Assembly (NCBI RefSeq): GCF_010509075.1
Contig: NZ_CP048433.1
Span: 2,108,001 to 2,172,000, forward strand
DNA: 64,000 nucleotides
From: Collinsella aerofaciens ATCC 25986
GTDB lineage: Bacteria; Actinomycetota; Coriobacteriia; Coriobacteriales; Coriobacteriaceae
Reading direction: 5' to 3'
The notes under the pieces were generated by a model. That model did not search any database. It saw only the letters and a program-made list of their open reading frames with translations, and was not told the DNA's origin. This document shows, in pieces, positions 51,706-59,275 of the stretch. Every line of letters begins with the position of its first letter. The first letter of the stretch is position 1. The translations under genes were made by a program, and so were the position numbers.

Positions 51706-52347
51706 CTAGCCGCGGACCTTCTTGACGACGTCCATGGCCTCGCGGGCGATCTGCTCGACCTTGGAGAAGTCGCCGTCGGCAAACAGGGCCGGCTTGACCA
51801 TCCAGGTGCCACCGCAGGCGATGATGGCGGAGGAGCTCAGGTACTCCTCGACGTTGGCGGTGCTCACGCCGCCGGTAGGCATAAAGCGGTGACCGACAAA
51901 CGGAGCGGCGAGGGCCTTGATGGTGTTCAGGCCGCCATACTGGGACGCGGGGAAGAACTTGGTGACCTTGAGGCCCAGGTTTTCGGCTGCGGTGACCTCG
52001 GAGGGGGTCACGGTGCCGGGAAGGACGGGCAGCTCGATGTCGATGCAATGCTTCACGACGTCCTCGTTGTAACCCGGGGAGACGATGAACTTGGCACCGG
52101 CGGCGCGGGCCTGCTCAACCTGCTCGACGGTCAGGACAGTGCCGGCGCCAACGCACATCTCGGGCTCGGCCTCGGCCATAGCGGCGATGCACTCGGCGGC
52201 GCAGGCGGTGCGGAAGGTGACCTCGGCGGACTTCATGCCAGCTGCCATAAGAGCGTGGGCGAGCGGGGCGGCGTCCTCGACCTTGTCGAGCACAACGACC
52301 GGCACGATGCCCAGGGACTCAAGCGTGGTGTAGAACTGATCGAACAT
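51706..52347 (-). CDS. kdgA: 2-dehydro-3-deoxyphosphogluconate aldolase
   Basis: Splits KDPG into pyruvate and glyceraldehyde 3-phosphate. 213 residues with the class I aldolase landmarks: AEVTFRT with the catalytic Glu, CVGAGTVLT, the Schiff-base Lys in LKVTKFFPAS and the phosphate loop FMPTGGVS. ATG 52347 follows GAAAGGAAC. It is the second gene of the kdgK-kdgA unit but has a 253-base gap in front that contains leader element B. Confidence 0.95.
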   Translation of the reverse strand: MFDQFYTTLESLGIVPVVVLDKVEDAAPLAHALMAAGMKSAEVTFRTACAAECIAAMAEAEPEMCVGAGTVLTVEQVEQARAAGAKFIVSPGYNEDVVKHCIDIELPVLPGTVTPSEVTAAENLGLKVTKFFPASQYGGLNTIKALAAPFVGHRFMPTGGVSTANVEEYLSSSAIIACGGTWMVKPALFADGDFSKVEQIAREAMDVVKKVRG

Positions 52348-52398
52348 GATGTTCCTTTCGATGTGTGGCGCGCATGGGCACGTGATTACCAAATGTGC

Positions 52399-52600: not shown

Positions 52601-53635
52601 CTAGCGCGCGACGCGGGTGCCACCGTCGGCGGCTGATGCTACGGCTGCGATCTCGTCTGCGGTCACCAAGTTGGAGTCGCCCTTGATGGTGAGCTTGAGG
52701 ATCGAAGCCGCAATCGCGTAGTTGACGGCAGCCTGCGGATCGAAGTCGTTGATGAGGGCGTGGACCAGGCCGGCGTTGAAAGCGTCGCCGGCGGCAACAC
52801 CCTCAAGCACGTGCACATCGTGAGCAGGGGAGAACCAGTGCTCGCCGCTCTCGGCGTCATAGAGCATGCCCATCCAGATGGAGCGCTCGACGCAGGAGAT
52901 GTTGCGGACGACCGAGGCGACCTTCTTGCAGCCGTACTCGGCGCAGATCTGACGGGCCATCTCGACATAGGTGTCGCGCTCCTCGATGCCGTGGGCAAGG
53001 GAGCCAGAGACGCAGGTCATACCGAGGCCAGCAGGCGCATCCTCGTCGTTGGCGATGCAGATGTCGACGAGCGGCAGGAGTTCCCTCATGGTGGCCTGCG
53101 ACTTCTCGGGCGACCACATCTTGCCGCGATAGTTCACGTCACACACGGTGGTGATGCCCTTGGCGCGGCAGGCGGCGAGCGCATCCTTGCAGGCGGCGGC
53201 CATCTCATCGGAGACGGCGGGGGTCACGCCGGAGAAATAGAAGACATCGATGCCCTTGAGGATCTCGTCCCAGTCAAAGACGTCGCGCTTGGCCATGTTG
53301 ATGGCAGAGTACTTGCGGTCGTAGACGCAACCGTTGCCGCGCTGCGAGGCACCGACCTCAAACACATAGGAGCCAAGGCGGTCGCCCTGACGCACGACGC
53401 GCGTGGTGTCGACGTCGTAGGCCTTCAGCGAACGCAGGGCGCACTCGCCCAGACGGTTGGCCGGGACAACGGAGACGTAAGCGGCCTTGTCGCCCTGGTA
53501 GGCCAGGGAAAGCGCAGTGTTGGCCTCGGCGCCGCCGTAGCGGACGTCAAACTCGGTTGCCTGCTCAATACGCAGGTGGTCTTTGGGTGAGAGTCTCATC
53601 ATGATCTCGCCGAAGGTAAGAACCGTTTTACCCAT
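52601..53635 (-). CDS. kdgK: 2-keto-3-deoxygluconate kinase
   Basis: 344-residue PfkB-family sugar kinase. N-terminal FGEIMMRLSPKDHLRI and RYGGAEANTALSLAYQG are typical of KDG kinases; the C-terminal signature is GVAAGDAFNAGLVHAL with the catalytic Asp. It phosphorylates KDG from the uxa and dhu branches. AAAGGAG is 10 bases before ATG 53635. It is preceded by tandem LacI-type operators and leader element A. Confidence 0.94.
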   Translation of the reverse strand: MGKTVLTFGEIMMRLSPKDHLRIEQATEFDVRYGGAEANTALSLAYQGDKAAYVSVVPANRLGECALRSLKAYDVDTTRVVRQGDRLGSYVFEVGASQRGNGCVYDRKYSAINMAKRDVFDWDEILKGIDVFYFSGVTPAVSDEMAAACKDALAACRAKGITTVCDVNYRGKMWSPEKSQATMRELLPLVDICIANDEDAPAGLGMTCVSGSLAHGIEERDTYVEMARQICAEYGCKKVASVVRNISCVERSIWMGMLYDAESGEHWFSPAHDVHVLEGVAAGDAFNAGLVHALINDFDPQAAVNYAIAASILKLTIKGDSNLVTADEIAAVASAADGGTRVAR

Positions 53636-53677
53636 GGTCGCGCAGCTCCTTTTACTCGTGCGTACACCTTTGATATG

Positions 53678-53735
53678 GCGTTGGCACGCAGGTGCCAAGA
53701 CGGTAGGGTGCGTCTTTGCACCTGCGTGCCAACGC
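53678..53735 (-). ncRNA. Leader element A, copy 2 (hairpin)
   Basis: A perfect 18-bp lower stem (53678-53695 with 53718-53735), one mismatch, then an AAGACG/CGTCTT stem closing the 8-base loop GTAGGGTG (+ strand). It lies in the kdgK leader, 43 bases before the start codon. The upper stem and loop are shared with 50380-50437; the lower stem is different but paired. Confidence 0.65.
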
Positions 53736-53785: not shown

Positions 53786-53869
53786 CACCTACAGCGTTTT
53801 GCAACCGAGATTTTTAAAAAAATGCCTAAAATGGCTCAGACCGCCGACAATTGGGAAACGGGGTGCGTT

Positions 53870-54892
53870 ATGGCGCAGATGAGAATCAAGGACATTGCCG
53901 CCGAGGCGGGCGTGAGCCCGGCCACGGTCTCGCGCTATCTCAACAACCGCCCCGGGCAAATGACCGAGGAGACCCGTGCTCGCATCGCGGCAGTTATCGA
54001 GCGCACCGGCTATCGCCCACGTGCCGCCGCGCGCAATCTGCGCAGCTCACGCACCAACCTCATCGGCGTGATTCTGGCCGACATCGCCAACCCGTTCTCG
54101 AGCGCCATGCTCGAAGGACTTTCCTCCAGTGCCGCCGCGCGCGGCTGCTCGCTTATGACTGCCATTAGCGGCAACGACCCCGCAAAGGAGGCCGAGTCGC
54201 TCGTCAGACTTATCGATGCTGGCGTGGACGGTCTGGTCGTCAACACCTGCGGAGGCAATGACGAGGCGATTGCCGCGGCAGCGGGACGTCTGCCCGTTGT
54301 GCTGCTCGACCGCGATGTTGTCGACGGCGGTGTCGATCTGGTGACATCTAACAACCGTGAGCTGGTCGCCGGCTTGGTAGACGCCTTGGCCGCCGCTGGC
54401 AGCGAGCGCCTGTGCCTGCTCACCGAGGCAAGCGACGACAGCCCCGTGCGTCGAGAGCGCGCCGAGGCCTTTGCCGACGAGCTTTCGCGCCGCGGCCTTG
54501 CCGGCGAGGTCGTCACCCTGGCCGACGGGGGCGCCACGGGCGTCGGCCGCCTGGACGAGACCATCCGCGGCTATGCAGGTAAAAAGCTCGGCCTCATTGC
54601 CGTCAACGGCCTGGTCTTTCTGCGCCTGACCGAGGCACTGGCACAGCTTGGTCCCTCGCTGCCGGCGGGGCTCAAGATCGCGACGTTTGACGACTACCCC
54701 TGGAACCATGTGCTCTTTGGTGGCGTGACCACGGCCGCGCAGGACACCCTCACCATTGCCGAGCGCGTAGTCGAGCGCCTTTCTGAGCGCATCGACGTTG
54801 TTACCACCACCGTGGGCGAGGCCGCAAAGCTCGCCCCCAAGCGCATCGAGATTCCCGGACACATCGAACACCGCGCTTCGACCTCGCGCTAG
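53870..54892 (+). CDS. LacI-family regulator of the kdg genes
   Basis: 340 residues: HTH (RIKDIAAEAGVSPATVSRYL, residues 5-24), hinge (RNLRSSRTNLIGVIL) and a periplasmic-binding-protein-like domain with GLVVNTCGGND and a C-terminal KIATFDDYPW. It is divergent from kdgK across tandem operators with a CG centre, so autoregulation and control of kdgK, kdgA and the YitT gene are likely. KDG or KDPG is the likely ligand. ATG 53870 is preferred; ATG 53879 is close and ATG 53822 lacks a ribosome site. Confidence 0.88.
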   Translation: MAQMRIKDIAAEAGVSPATVSRYLNNRPGQMTEETRARIAAVIERTGYRPRAAARNLRSSRTNLIGVILADIANPFSSAMLEGLSSSAAARGCSLMTAISGNDPAKEAESLVRLIDAGVDGLVVNTCGGNDEAIAAAAGRLPVVLLDRDVVDGGVDLVTSNNRELVAGLVDALAAAGSERLCLLTEASDDSPVRRERAEAFADELSRRGLAGEVVTLADGGATGVGRLDETIRGYAGKKLGLIAVNGLVFLRLTEALAQLGPSLPAGLKIATFDDYPWNHVLFGGVTTAAQDTLTIAERVVERLSERIDVVTTTVGEAAKLAPKRIEIPGHIEHRASTSR

Positions 54893-54934: not shown

Positions 54935-55429
54935 ATGGCTGCGTCTGTGCTGAGTGTGCGAGTGGACTCGTCAATTAAAGACTCATTTGCCGAGCTGTGC
55001 GAAGAGCTTGGCATGACTTCGTCTGTTGCGGTCAATATGTTTATGAGGCAGATGCTGCGCGAGCGCTCTCTGCCGTTTGTTCCTTCACTTGGTAAAAGCT
55101 CTGCGAGCGAAAGCGCCGCGACGGGCATTTTGGATACTGCCCAGATTGAGTCCGCCGTCCGCGAGGCAGCCAGCTCGATTCCCGCCATCAAAACCGTGAT
55201 TCTTTTTGGTTCGTATGCCCGGGGCGAGGCACATGTCGATAGCGATATTGACTTGCGTCTCGAAGTCGATCGCGAGCAGGGCTTTGGTCTTTTCGCGTTG
55301 TCGGCGTTTGGCGAGGCGGTTCGCAAAGAAACCGGGAGGCAGGTTGATCTCGTCTCTAGTGATCATCTTGATGACGAACTTGCCGCGGTAATCGAGCGCG
55401 AAGGAGTGATCCTTTATGATCGCGCGTAA
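54935..55429 (+). CDS. DinJ/RelB-like domain fused to a minimal nucleotidyltransferase
   Basis: 164 residues. Residues 1-55 are a ribbon-helix-helix antitoxin domain of the RelB/DinJ type (SVRVDSSIKDSFAELCEELG, SVAVNMFMRQMLRERSLPF). Residues of about 70-164 are an MNT nucleotidyltransferase with FGSYARGEAHVDSDIDL, that is GS and the two Asp of the active site. MNT proteins normally pair with a HEPN toxin gene; none follows here. AGGAGG is 6 bases before ATG 54935, and TGTGATAAT at about 54897 is an extended -10 box. Confidence 0.85.
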   Translation: MAASVLSVRVDSSIKDSFAELCEELGMTSSVAVNMFMRQMLRERSLPFVPSLGKSSASESAATGILDTAQIESAVREAASSIPAIKTVILFGSYARGEAHVDSDIDLRLEVDREQGFGLFALSAFGEAVRKETGRQVDLVSSDHLDDELAAVIEREGVILYDRA

Positions 55430-55474: not shown

Positions 55475-55490
55475 TTAACCCTGCGGAAAC
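55475..55490 (+). promoter_or_regulatory. GlnR-like box before the glutamine synthetase homologue
   Basis: TTAAC, six bases, then GAAAC fits one half of the actinobacterial GlnR pattern (GTnAC-n6-GAAAC). The second half is not visible. It lies about 66 bases before the start codon of the gene that precedes a GlnR-like regulator gene. Confidence 0.4.
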
Positions 55491-55555: not shown

Positions 55556-56893
55556 ATGAACCAGCAGAACATCGATTACGTACTCCGCTCTGTAGAGCAG
55601 CGTGACATCCGCTTTGTGCGTCTGTGGTTTGTCGACATTCTCGGCCGCCTCAAGAACTTTGCCATTAGCCCCGAGGACCTCGAGGTCGCTTTTGAGGAGG
55701 GTATTGGCTTTGACGGCTCCGCCATCGAGGGCTTTGCCACGCCCGAGGAAGCCGACATGCTGGCGTTTCCCGATGCTTCGACCTTCCAGATTTTGCCGTG
55801 GCGCCCGAGCCACAACGGCGTCGCCCGCGTGTTCTGCGACGTGTGTACCCCCGACCGCAAGCCCTTCGCCGGCGACCCGCGCGATGCCCTGCGCCGCATG
55901 TTCTACAAGGCCGAAAAGGCCGGCTATCTGCTCAACGTGGGCGCCGAGCTGGAGTATTACTATTTCCCCGACGAGCACACCCCCGAGCCGCTCGACAACG
56001 TGGGCTACTTCGATCTTTCGGTGAGCGATGCCGCTCGCGACCTGCGTCGCAACACAGTCCTCACGCTCGAGAAGATGTCCGTGCCCGTGGAGTACACCTT
56101 CCATGCCGCCGGCCGCTCGCAGCACGGCATGAGCCTGCGCCACGCCGAGGCCCTGAGCATGTCCGACGCCATCACCACGGCCAAACTCATCATTAAGCAG
56201 CAGGCCTACGAGAGCGGTTGCCACGCATCCTTTATGCCCAAGCCGTTGGCAGGCGAGGACGGCAGTGCCATGTTCCTGTGCCAGTCGCTATTCGACCACG
56301 ACGGCAACAACGTCTTTTGGGGCGAGGACGACGAGAAGTACCATCTCTCCGATATCGCCAAGCACTACATGGCCGGCATCCTGGCGCACGCGCGCGAGAT
56401 CAGCGCCATCACCAACCCCACGGTCAACTCGTACAAGCGCATCACCACGGGCGGCGACTCCGTGCCGCAGTACGCCACGTGGGGCCTGCGCAACCGCGCG
56501 AGCATGGTTCGCATCCCGGTCTACAAGCCCGGCAAGCAGCTGTCCACGCGCATCGAGCTTCGTAGCCCCGACCCCATGGCCAACCCGTACCTGGTCAACG
56601 CCGTCACGTTGGCGGCTGGTCTGGACGGCATCGAGCGCAAGCTGGAGCTCCCGCCCGAGGCCACGGCCGAGACGCTCAAGCTCACCGATCGTCAGATGCT
56701 CGAGGCCGGCTACACGCCGCTGCCGCGTTCGCTCAAAGAGGCGCTCGACGTGTTTGAGGACTCGCAGTTTATGAAGGATGCCCTCGGCGAGCACATCCAC
56801 AGCTTCTTCCTAAAAAAGAAGCGCGACGAGTGGCATAAGTTTGAGTCCACGATCACCGAGTGGGAGATCAAGCACTACCTGGCGAACTCCTAA
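55556..56893 (+). CDS. Glutamine synthetase family protein with lost metal ligands
   Basis: 445 residues aligning along the full length of type I glutamine synthetase (beta-grasp part with GFDGSAIEGF, catalytic barrel with HASFMPKPL and NPTVNSYKR, C-terminal RNR and RSPDPMANPYL). The Glu pair of the ELEYYYF strand (131, 133) is present. However, the HHEVAPGQHE segment reads FHAAGRSQHG (Glu replaced at 184 and 191), the His of GMH is Phe240, and the Glu of the GYEAP loop is Ser302. These residues bind metal and ammonium in true enzymes, so activity is doubtful. AAGGGGAG precedes ATG 55556. A GlnR-like regulator gene follows at 50 bases. Confidence 0.88.
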   Translation: MNQQNIDYVLRSVEQRDIRFVRLWFVDILGRLKNFAISPEDLEVAFEEGIGFDGSAIEGFATPEEADMLAFPDASTFQILPWRPSHNGVARVFCDVCTPDRKPFAGDPRDALRRMFYKAEKAGYLLNVGAELEYYYFPDEHTPEPLDNVGYFDLSVSDAARDLRRNTVLTLEKMSVPVEYTFHAAGRSQHGMSLRHAEALSMSDAITTAKLIIKQQAYESGCHASFMPKPLAGEDGSAMFLCQSLFDHDGNNVFWGEDDEKYHLSDIAKHYMAGILAHAREISAITNPTVNSYKRITTGGDSVPQYATWGLRNRASMVRIPVYKPGKQLSTRIELRSPDPMANPYLVNAVTLAAGLDGIERKLELPPEATAETLKLTDRQMLEAGYTPLPRSLKEALDVFEDSQFMKDALGEHIHSFFLKKKRDEWHKFESTITEWEIKHYLANS

Positions 56894-56943
56894 TCGCGCT
56901 GGCTTGTTCCAGTACGATTGAGCTCATTTCTTTGGAGGCCGAT

Positions 56944-57606
56944 ATGTCCGAAAAGAGTGCCCTGTTCATGGCGCGCACGACGCGCTTCCACGAGTTTGCC
57001 CGCAGTTTGACGACCACCCTGGGTGTCGAGGTGAGCCTGGCCACGCCCGATTCGCCGACTGCGGCGCACGACTTTGACCTGCTGATCCTCGATTCCGACG
57101 GCATCCGCAGCGACCGCATCGATCAGATTGCCAAGTGGCTTGACGATCGCGGCGGCGTCCCCATGTTGGTGATTGTCGACGACGAGGCGCTCGGCACCCT
57201 GCGCCTGCCCAATCACGCGCATGCCGACTTTGTGTGCCCCACGGCGACGCCCAACGAGCTCAAGGCTCGCGCGCAGCGCTTGATGGGCGAGGAGGAGACC
57301 GTCACCGCCGACGATGTGCTCAACATCGATAACCTCGAGATCAACCTGGCTACCTACCAGGTAACGCTCGATAACGAGCCTATTGACCTGACGCTGATGG
57401 AGTACTCGCTGCTGAGCTTTTTGGCGACGCATCCCAACCGTGCCTACAGCCGCGAGGTACTGCTGCACCGCGTGTGGGGCTTTGAGTACTGCGGCGGCAC
57501 GCGCACCGTCGACGTGCACATCCGACGCATCCGCTCCAAGGTGGGCCCGCAGATCGCGGCGCACATCACCACCGTCCGCGGCGTGGGCTATCTGTTTAAG
57601 GACTAG
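56944..57606 (+). CDS. GlnR-like OmpR-family regulator with degenerate receiver
   Basis: 220 residues. The C-terminal winged helix (about 125-220) carries YEFSLL-like helix MEYSLLSFLATHPNRAYS and VWGFEYCGGTRTVDVHIRR, a close match to actinobacterial GlnR. The N-terminal receiver lacks the usual acidic pair after strand 1 and the Thr/Lys of the phosphorylation pocket, although DSD in LLILDSDGIR sits near the phospho-Asp position. Like GlnR it should act without a kinase. It is translated with the glutamine-synthetase-like gene; ATG 56944 follows GGAGG at 6 bases. Confidence 0.86.
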   Translation: MSEKSALFMARTTRFHEFARSLTTTLGVEVSLATPDSPTAAHDFDLLILDSDGIRSDRIDQIAKWLDDRGGVPMLVIVDDEALGTLRLPNHAHADFVCPTATPNELKARAQRLMGEEETVTADDVLNIDNLEINLATYQVTLDNEPIDLTLMEYSLLSFLATHPNRAYSREVLLHRVWGFEYCGGTRTVDVHIRRIRSKVGPQIAAHITTVRGVGYLFKD

Positions 57607-57814: not shown

Positions 57815-59275
57815 ATGAGCGAGAACGATTCCCAGCGTCCCCAGGATGCGGGCAACGCTGGCGAGACCCAGCAGCAGCCGCGTGTGCAGGTGGAGTCGAC
57901 GCCTGCCGGTAGCAACATTCCCTACGTGCAAGCTTACGACACGCAGACCGGCAAGCCGCTGGGCGGCCAACAGGTCGTGAACAAGCACACGGTGGTCAAG
58001 ACCAAGACCAAAAAGCTGCCGATTTTCATTACGGCGCTCGCCGGCTGCGCCTGCGGCGCCCTGTTGGTCATCGCGCTCATTATGAGCGGCACGCTCGATA
58101 TCGGTGGCGGCAAGAATGCCGTGACGGCGGGTGCTTCGGGCTCATCGACGCAAAAGATTACGATTGATTCCGAGGACACCACGTTGGCCGAGGCCGTTTC
58201 TGCCAAGGCCCTGCCCTCCGTCGTTTCCATCACCGCCACTTCGAGCGGCAGCCAGAATGGCTCGCTTTCGCAGTCTGCTGATGAGTCGGATAGCTCGGGC
58301 AGCGTCGGTTCGGGCGTAGTGCTCGATACCGAGGGCCACATCCTCACCAACAACCACGTGGTCGACGGCTACGACCAGTACGTGGTCACCATGGACGACG
58401 GCACCACCTACGAGGCCGAGTTCGTGGGCAACGATGCCTCGAGCGACCTGGCCGTCATCAAGCTCAAGGACGCCGACGCCTCCAAGCTCACGCCGATCGA
58501 GATCGGTGATTCCTCCAAGCTCAACGTGGGCGAGTGGGTCATGGCAATCGGTTCGCCGTTCGGTAACGAACAGTCTGTCTCCACGGGTATTGTGTCGGCG
58601 CTGTATCGCTCCACGGCTATGAGCTCTACCGGCGGCAACACTATCTATGCCAATATGATTCAGACCGATGCCGCCATCAACCCGGGCAACTCCGGCGGCG
58701 CGCTCGTCAATGACAACGGCGAGCTCGTGGGCATCAACTCGCTCATCGAGAGCTACTCGGGCTCCAGCTCGGGCGTGGGCTTTGCTATTCCCGTTAACTA
58801 CGCCAAGAACATTGCCGACCAGATTATCGACGGCAAGACGCCGGTGCATCCGTACATGGGCGCTACGCTTTCGAGCGTCAATGCGCTCAACGCCCGCATC
58901 AACAAGCTGAGCACCGATAGCGGCGCGTATGTGGCGAGCGTCGTTGAGGATGGTCCTGCCGCCAAGGCCGGCATTCAGGAGGGTGACGTTATCACCAAGC
59001 TGGGCGACGACGAGATCACGAGCGCCGATGGCCTGATCATCGCGCTGCGCAGCCACGAGGTGGGCGAGAAGGTCGAGATCACGCTTATGCGCGGCAAGGA
59101 AGAGAAGAAGGTCACGGTTGAGCTGGGCTCCGATGAGGAACTGCAGAACCAGCAGCAGGACGACAGTTCGACCGACACCGGCAACGGCGGTATTACCGAC
59201 GAGCAGCTGCGCCAGTACCTGGAGGAGCTGTTAGGCCAGCAGGGCCAGGGCCAGGGCTACGGCCAGGGTTTCTAA
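57815..59275 (+). CDS. HtrA/DegP-like membrane-anchored serine protease
   Basis: 486 residues: a charged, Gln-rich cytoplasmic start (1-66), one membrane helix (about 68-91), a trypsin-like domain with His in TNNHVVDGY (about 180), Asp in SSDLAVIKL (about 210) and Ser in NPGNSGGALV (about 292), then one PDZ domain (about 345-440) and a Gln/Gly-rich tail. It performs quality control of extracytoplasmic proteins. GAAAGGA precedes ATG 57815 by 8 bases. A strong terminator follows. Confidence 0.94.
   Translation: MSENDSQRPQDAGNAGETQQQPRVQVESTPAGSNIPYVQAYDTQTGKPLGGQQVVNKHTVVKTKTKKLPIFITALAGCACGALLVIALIMSGTLDIGGGKNAVTAGASGSSTQKITIDSEDTTLAEAVSAKALPSVVSITATSSGSQNGSLSQSADESDSSGSVGSGVVLDTEGHILTNNHVVDGYDQYVVTMDDGTTYEAEFVGNDASSDLAVIKLKDADASKLTPIEIGDSSKLNVGEWVMAIGSPFGNEQSVSTGIVSALYRSTAMSSTGGNTIYANMIQTDAAINPGNSGGALVNDNGELVGINSLIESYSGSSSGVGFAIPVNYAKNIADQIIDGKTPVHPYMGATLSSVNALNARINKLSTDSGAYVASVVEDGPAAKAGIQEGDVITKLGDDEITSADGLIIALRSHEVGEKVEITLMRGKEEKKVTVELGSDEELQNQQQDDSSTDTGNGGITDEQLRQYLEELLGQQGQGQGYGQGF

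Follow-up and report, generated by a model that had tools for sequence, protein, structure and literature searches.

What does a glutamine synthetase (GS) homologue do when its metal ligands have been replaced and a GlnR-like regulator is encoded directly behind it? The question is raised by a locus in the window, the 64,000-nucleotide stretch of Collinsella aerofaciens ATCC 25986 DNA analyzed here (host genome label G000; 2.46 Mb in three contigs). The best explanation, to which we assign a probability of roughly 0.6, is that the homologue (hereafter pseudo-GS) would act as a non-catalytic sensor of nitrogen status for the regulator encoded alongside it.

The pair fills exactly the interval, 55556..57606, that an earlier note made from the letters alone had given for it; both genes lie on the + strand, with 50 nt from the GS stop to the regulator ATG (Table 1). 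A longer ORF for the regulator, from a GTG at 56860, runs into the end of the GS gene. Upstream, 54935-55429 (+) is a single ORF in which the N-terminal part of a RelB/DinJ antitoxin (TIGR02384, 56 bits, above cut-off) is fused to an MntA-type nucleotidyltransferase; the latter part scores 51 bits against NF047752, under the cut-off of 60, and such a fusion to an antitoxin is unusual. A LacI-type regulator (53822-54892, +) stands opposite minus-strand ORFs at 51706-52392 and 52601-53698, which were named by eye only as KDPG-aldolase and sugar kinase. After the regulator of the pair, 57815-59275 (+) encodes a trypsin/PDZ (HtrA-like) protease.

Table 1. Positions of the GS–regulator pair and its upstream box in the window
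Feature	Position	Strand	Details
GS homologue (type I, pseudo-GS)	55556..56893	+	ATG to stop, 445 aa
GlnR-like OmpR-type regulator, degenerate receiver	56944..57606	+	220 aa; ATG 56944 is the most likely start
GlnR-type box TTAAC-n6-GAAAC, 5′ of operon	55475..55490	+	coding strand, 81 nt before GS ATG

The pseudo-GS matches the whole Pfam profiles Gln-synt_N (96 bits) and Gln-synt_C (336 bits) at full length, and scores 397.6 bits against TIGR00653, the NCBIfam equivalog for type I GS, under its cut-off of 429.15. Its A184, G191, F240, and S302 stand in the register of E189, E196, H245, and E304 of Bacillus subtilis GlnA (residue numbering follows what we take to be the sequence of that protein), both in an alignment to PDB 8s59 and in an 89-row alignment of GS sequences. 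Further changes are F182 for H187 and T62 for R62; E131, E133, R298, R316, R331, E333, and R335 are retained. The four substitutions and the two kept glutamates E131 and E133 had been read from the sequence alone in the earlier note, and the register now confirms them. Misalignment, with the true ligands shifted elsewhere, is ruled out by the agreement of the two alignments: the ligands of type I GS are replaced, not displaced. These data strongly suggest that the homologue cannot be an ordinary GS, and we predict it to be a catalytically dead pseudoenzyme.

The regulator carries a Pfam Trans_reg_C domain (82.5 bits) whose match reaches residue 218 of 220. The protein thus ends directly behind the winged helix and has no C-tail like the Bacillus one that enters the GS active site. 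Among solved structures its best matches are 8hig (106 bits) and 8hih (100 bits), ahead of MtrA (82 bits), so that the GlnR-like winged helix noticed at first sight is borne out; we take 8hig and 8hih to be GlnR, their names in the PDB table being OmpR-family or transcriptional regulators. The receiver had been described as lacking a phosphorylation pocket. This holds for the conserved-position Lys, absent in an alignment to regX3, and for the acidic pair after the first strand, absent by eye, but the acceptor-like Asp50 itself is retained (among 28 relatives, D in 23 and E in 5). Against Pfam GlnR_1st (PF21695) the window's regulator scores 22.7 bits, under the cut-off of 27, and six other GS-paired regulators score 13.4–23 bits, compared with 104–150 bits for three canonical GlnR rows. 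In a regulator tree, 38 GS-paired regulators split from 13 canonical GlnR rows with support 98/94; with only three outgroup rows, the tree says little on the ties of both groups to other OmpR families. Seven rows (L098, L132, L199, L204, L232, L243, L251) were left out of this tree, the support of the split rising from 80/86; an earlier version had included two short rows that were mis-cut and showed branch lengths of 10. Collinsella sp. 4_8_47FAA has a regulator with 100% identity to that of the window.

Conservation of the pair was surveyed in 246 genomes of the class, comprising 163 of the window's order and 83 others (a split counted from kinship labels). Family names were taken from the record titles of matching loci, from which the window's family (f1) appears to be Coriobacteriaceae, its sister (f2) Atopobiaceae, and f3 Eggerthellaceae. 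A GS match was found in 234 genomes and a regulator match in 223, always one per genome at E 1e-28; within the order the counts are 162/163 and 161/163, respectively. Two order genomes have no regulator: G098, where GS is not matched either, and G134, from which the linked GS is absent too. An assembly gap could explain the absence in G098 (140 contigs), though hardly that in G134 (f3, one contig). The htrA gene is found in G098; in its relative G092 the nearest htrA match sits on a different contig from the pair, so that it is uninformative on co-loss in G098. G134 holds as its sole type I GS a different protein, which shares 43% identity with that of its congener. It was rejected as a broken orthologue, since it is open across 390 matched residues with a stop near the end of the family match; in this GS homologue (L112:3397-4512, −) the loop is shortened and the flap altered.

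The regulator was directly downstream in 30/30 loci of the window's family first examined, and across the 48 non-f2 genomes listed it lies 21–285 nt downstream of GS in 46, 1516 nt downstream in one, and on another contig in one. In the 47 f2 genomes listed, it follows within 300 nt in 4, lies 2.9–9.1 kb downstream in 40, upstream in 1, and on other contigs in 2; it thus falls within 10 kb downstream of GS in 44. Exceptions are G104 and G159, in which the two genes fall on separate contigs, and G092, where the regulator is upstream. The f2 insertion between the two genes encodes an amino-acid-type ABC transporter: solute-binding protein, permease, and ATPase were each tested in G082, and the ATPase in G110 and G084 as well. 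Loss of the partner in f2, suggested by 19/25 loci without a regulator in the stretches first retrieved, was rejected, because all 36 of the 36 f2 genomes searched hold one strong orthologue, mostly downstream of the inserted genes. In some f2 genomes the regulator is followed by a gene start that resembles, by eye, that of the protease gene behind the window's regulator.

GS and regulator occur together in Olsenella, Parafannyhessea, and Adlercreutzia loci. The conserved adjacency that the earlier note had asked about across Coriobacteriia extends beyond them. Among the best 80 regulator relatives in named genomes, a GS ORF lies within flanks of up to 5 kb in 36, with the regulator directly behind GS in 31 (stop-to-stop distance 632 to 926 nt). 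Of these adjoining pairs, 23/31 are from outside Coriobacteriia by title or GS score (Acidimicrobiia, Actinomycetota or Actinomycetes, and one Acidobacteria), and the same arrangement appears in 8/10 further phylum-search stretches, hand-chosen from the listed matches. The GS of the 31 loci keep E189, E196, and H245; H187 is often F or Q, likewise in the Acidimicrobiia-type loci L189–L252. No GS was found near canonical GlnR in 13 rows (Streptomyces, Micromonospora, Amycolatopsis, and others), with up to 5 kb covered on each side. The pair is older than the class Coriobacteriia.

It may still be that adjacency reflects joint expression only. The pseudo-GS would then have no functional relation to the regulator beyond a shared operon, and the regulator would be constitutive or sense by itself. 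The genes that intervene in those 40 f2 genomes would fit such an arrangement, as would the 83 non-order genomes, 12 of which have a GS match without a regulator match (among the matches listed, G008, G011, G014, G020, G026, G061, G075, G093, and G101, nine of the 12) and two a regulator without GS (G085, G109); these counts were obtained partly by subtraction, many of these assemblies are incomplete, and a second, unlinked GS type is present in most outer genomes. However, both genes are present in 161 of the 163 order genomes, regulator and linked GS are both missing from the remaining two, and related pairs occur in other classes of the phylum, all of which makes functional independence unlikely.

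The second GS that the earlier note suggested looking for is indeed in the genome: one additional GS, a full-length type III enzyme of ~700 aa with GSIII_N and C-terminal domains, which is predicted to be able to do the work of glutamine synthesis. GSIII_N is present in 161/163 genomes of the window's order versus 2/83 of the remaining class genomes. All f1 and f2 genomes in the class search have a type III GS; G197 and G227, the two in the order that lack it, both belong to f3. In G072, a relative in the same genus, E189, E196, and H245 are kept, whereas E132 is replaced by Ala and the flap carries Asp. This distribution, with type III GS in every genome of the dead-GS families, would also suit a pseudo-GS that acts on the type III GS, as a member of a mixed oligomer, a chaperone, or an inhibitor, and not on the regulator, the operon merely co-regulating the two. 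Yet the type III GS matches the type I catalytic profile only in part and has different end domains, the two genes are about 62 kb apart (C1:2163556, C1:2225267), and the conserved neighbor of the pseudo-GS is the regulator; we consider an action on the type III GS quite unlikely.

The extent of ligand replacement bears on whether the protein may still be an enzyme. E189, E196, and H245 are all replaced in 35/35 GS of f1 (n = 10) and f2 (n = 25), one f2 row having Asp at E189; E132 is also missing in 20/25 f2 rows, and the flap glutamate (E304) is replaced in 16/35 pseudo-GS, including 9/10 in the window's family. In f3 (19 rows), E189 and H245 are kept in 19/19 and E196 in 18/19, and in other orders 19 linked-type and 12 unlinked-type GS retain all six ligands (E132, E134, E189, E196, H245, E333). 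A duplicate row, L063, was excluded from the tree and the residue counts, and of the linked-type set 18/19 were seen beside a regulator, the remaining one (L139) standing at a contig end. Single f3/f5 genomes (L114, L115, L117) show separate changes, namely E196 to Q, E333 to V or D, and flap changes, as if more losses were under way.

At the same time, the fold is preserved, and D53, H188, Q194, R298, R316, R331, and E333 are kept in 35/35 pseudo-GS and R335 in 34/35. Retention of E333 and of the substrate and phosphate arginines is what would be expected of a protein that still performs catalysis, with other chemistry or another metal arrangement, in the manner of the GS-like ligases for polyamines or ethanolamine; Streptomyces is known to have GS-like proteins with other substrates. 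However, glutamylating GS-like enzymes are not known to lose their metal ligands, and here all 35 pseudo-GS compared have lost both metal glutamates together with the metal histidine, and nearly half the flap glutamate, so that continued catalysis appears very unlikely.

In an 89-row GS tree, f1 and f2 together form one clade (support 100/100, branch 0.42), and the ligand loss therefore most likely happened once. The pseudo-GS is under strong purifying selection and is not decaying. That it should be a decaying glnA relic, made redundant by the type III GS, would agree with the loss of catalytic residues in families holding that enzyme, but is scarcely credible and was rejected on dN/dS, which for the window GS against 20 close relatives is 0.000 to 0.053 (pooled 0.026), while 91 alignment columns are at least 97% conserved in both pseudo-GS and intact linked-type GS and no internal stop codon occurs among the order matches listed, apart from G134's different GS.

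A GlnR-like box had been noticed before the operon, and the window does contain one, TTAACCCTGCGGAAAC (55475-55490, +). A wide pattern ([GT][ATC]AA[CT]-n6-G[AT]AAC, coding strand, at most 250 nt from the GS start) matches 5′ of 57/82 GS genes on the coding strand and 1/82 on the reverse strand, where base shuffling expects 0.28; because the pattern was widened after the sequences from a stricter one had been seen, this expectation flatters the result. By group, the wide box precedes GS in 10/10 of f1, 17/25 of f2, 11/21 of f3–f5, 13/15 outer linked-type, and 6/11 outer unlinked-type genes. The stricter first pattern gave 4/11, 2/25, 9/21, 3/15, and 4/11 in five groups, with 0.15, 0.24, 0.28, 0.19, and 0.19 expected.

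Across the window's genome, the strict form KWAACN6GAAACA has 12 sites, and a reversed control pattern 5. Strict sites precede the GS–regulator operon, the NADP-specific glutamate dehydrogenase gene (gdhA), the N-terminal part of glutamate synthase (gltB), and two branched-chain-type binding proteins; gdhA has a second box of relaxed form, and a relaxed box lies just upstream of the type III GS. The other 7/12 sites are without a clear nitrogen gene (five with no clear gene, one EamA permease, one DUF711 gene). Upstream of amtB-glnK there is no coding-strand box, and one relaxed match is on the other strand (L153:5437). Two further genomes, G064 and G086, have three sites each, including the GS operon in both and, in G064, a gene reading by eye as an amino-acid-binding protein; the reversed control gave 0 in each.

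Taken together, a GS that is not an ordinary one, another full-length GS in the genome, a conserved pair, and boxes before nitrogen genes make the sensor role the best reading of the pseudo-GS. The earlier note had proposed a glutamine or nitrogen sensor; its nitrogen half is favored on these four grounds, and glutamine sensing in the Bacillus manner is not supported. Under the sensor reading, an oligomer of pseudo-GS would bind a small molecule that reports nitrogen supply. The former substrate site could take glutamate or glutamine; the other candidates are a nucleotide, and 2-oxoglutarate in an intersubunit pocket. The ligand-bound pseudo-GS would change shape and contact the degenerate receiver of the regulator directly, and this contact would set the occupancy of GAAAC-type boxes by the regulator. 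The regulator would in turn control its own operon, the type III GS, glutamate dehydrogenase, glutamate synthase, and amino-acid uptake, with no sensor kinase involved.

What the signal might be can be narrowed by comparison with GS of known structure. In Bacillus, glutamine-bound GS takes the C-tail of GlnR into its active site, where R62 and E304 hold the glutamine, according to PMC9249791. These two residues are retained in just 0.06 and 0.54 of the 35 pseudo-GS (window T62, S302), and with a regulator that has no tail the exact Bacillus mechanism is unlikely. Binding of an amino acid or of a nucleotide may still be possible, since the arginines for the substrate carboxylate and the phosphates are retained.

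The type I GS of methanogens bind 2-oxoglutarate at the interface of their subunits (PMC11957540, PMC10799026). Of the seven pocket residues (Methanosarcina mazei F24, R26, S38, R87, R172, R173, S189), 5/7 are identical in the window, where F20, R22, R83, R164, and R165 are kept and N34 and T181 stand in place of Ser. Pocket retention in pseudo-GS is 0.89 versus 0.72 for comparable background columns, which in a test by random column draws, with no kinship correction, is not significant (P = 0.087; f3, P = 0.009). All seven are kept in 19/19 linked-type outer GS, and R26 and R173 are replaced in 12/12 of the unlinked paralogue. R87 is kept in just 11/35 GS from non-Coriobacteriia loci, so that not every pair has this pocket. 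The pocket was dropped as decisive evidence given the P value for pseudo-GS; 2-oxoglutarate is a candidate ligand, not a result.

The proposed circuit resembles that of Bacillus GlnR in that a type I GS and a nitrogen regulator share one predicted operon (same strand, close together). Bacillus GlnR is a MerR-type regulator, whereas the regulator here is OmpR-type and without a C-tail, and its GS is, by sequence, dead. In the Bacillus circuit the GS itself is the sensor, acting by contact (PMC9249791). Actinobacterial GlnR proteins are the closest solved relatives of the window's regulator, and the receiver is atypical in both; they differ in that the window's receiver falls under the GlnR_1st cut-off and the GS-paired regulators split off in the tree. 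In Streptomyces, gdhA and GS genes are among the targets of GlnR (PMC10704036).

On the GS side, the PDB entries that match the pseudo-GS best, 8s59 and 8tfb, are of M. mazei GlnA1, which shares most of the pocket residues. The methanogen type I GS are working enzymes (PMC11957540, PMC10799026), whereas the pseudo-GS is expected to be without catalysis. Streptomyces GlnRII, as PMC10704036 presents it, is OmpR-like and without phosphorylation sites or a neighboring kinase, and its gene number is near that of glnII; the GS there is type II, and the likeness is one of description only. Open-access literature searches found no description on point of this pair or of a dead GS. Bacillus provides a known example of a GS that acts on a nitrogen regulator; the variant in which the GS is dead and the regulator OmpR-type is, as far as these searches go, new.

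A wider scenario can be put forward tentatively. Deep-branching Actinomycetota may possess a GS and OmpR nitrogen circuit, independent of the GS and MerR circuit of Bacillus, in which the coupled GS would be the sensor; in Coriobacteriaceae and Atopobiaceae a type III GS would have taken over synthesis, and the coupled GS would then have shed catalysis to become a pure sensor, perhaps of 2-oxoglutarate and not glutamine. The signals and kinases for actinobacterial GlnR were still called unknown in a 2023 review (PMC10704036). GS-coupled sensing, if true, would account for the kinase-free action of a GlnR-like regulator, and a pair of proteins with a single DNA box is enough to put the question of GlnR activation to the test. 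A dead GS selected beside such a regulator would be an instance in which nature has separated two functions, keeping the sensing and dropping the synthesis. If this is true, a GS would have become the sensor of a nitrogen regulator a second time, independently, and in gut bacteria.
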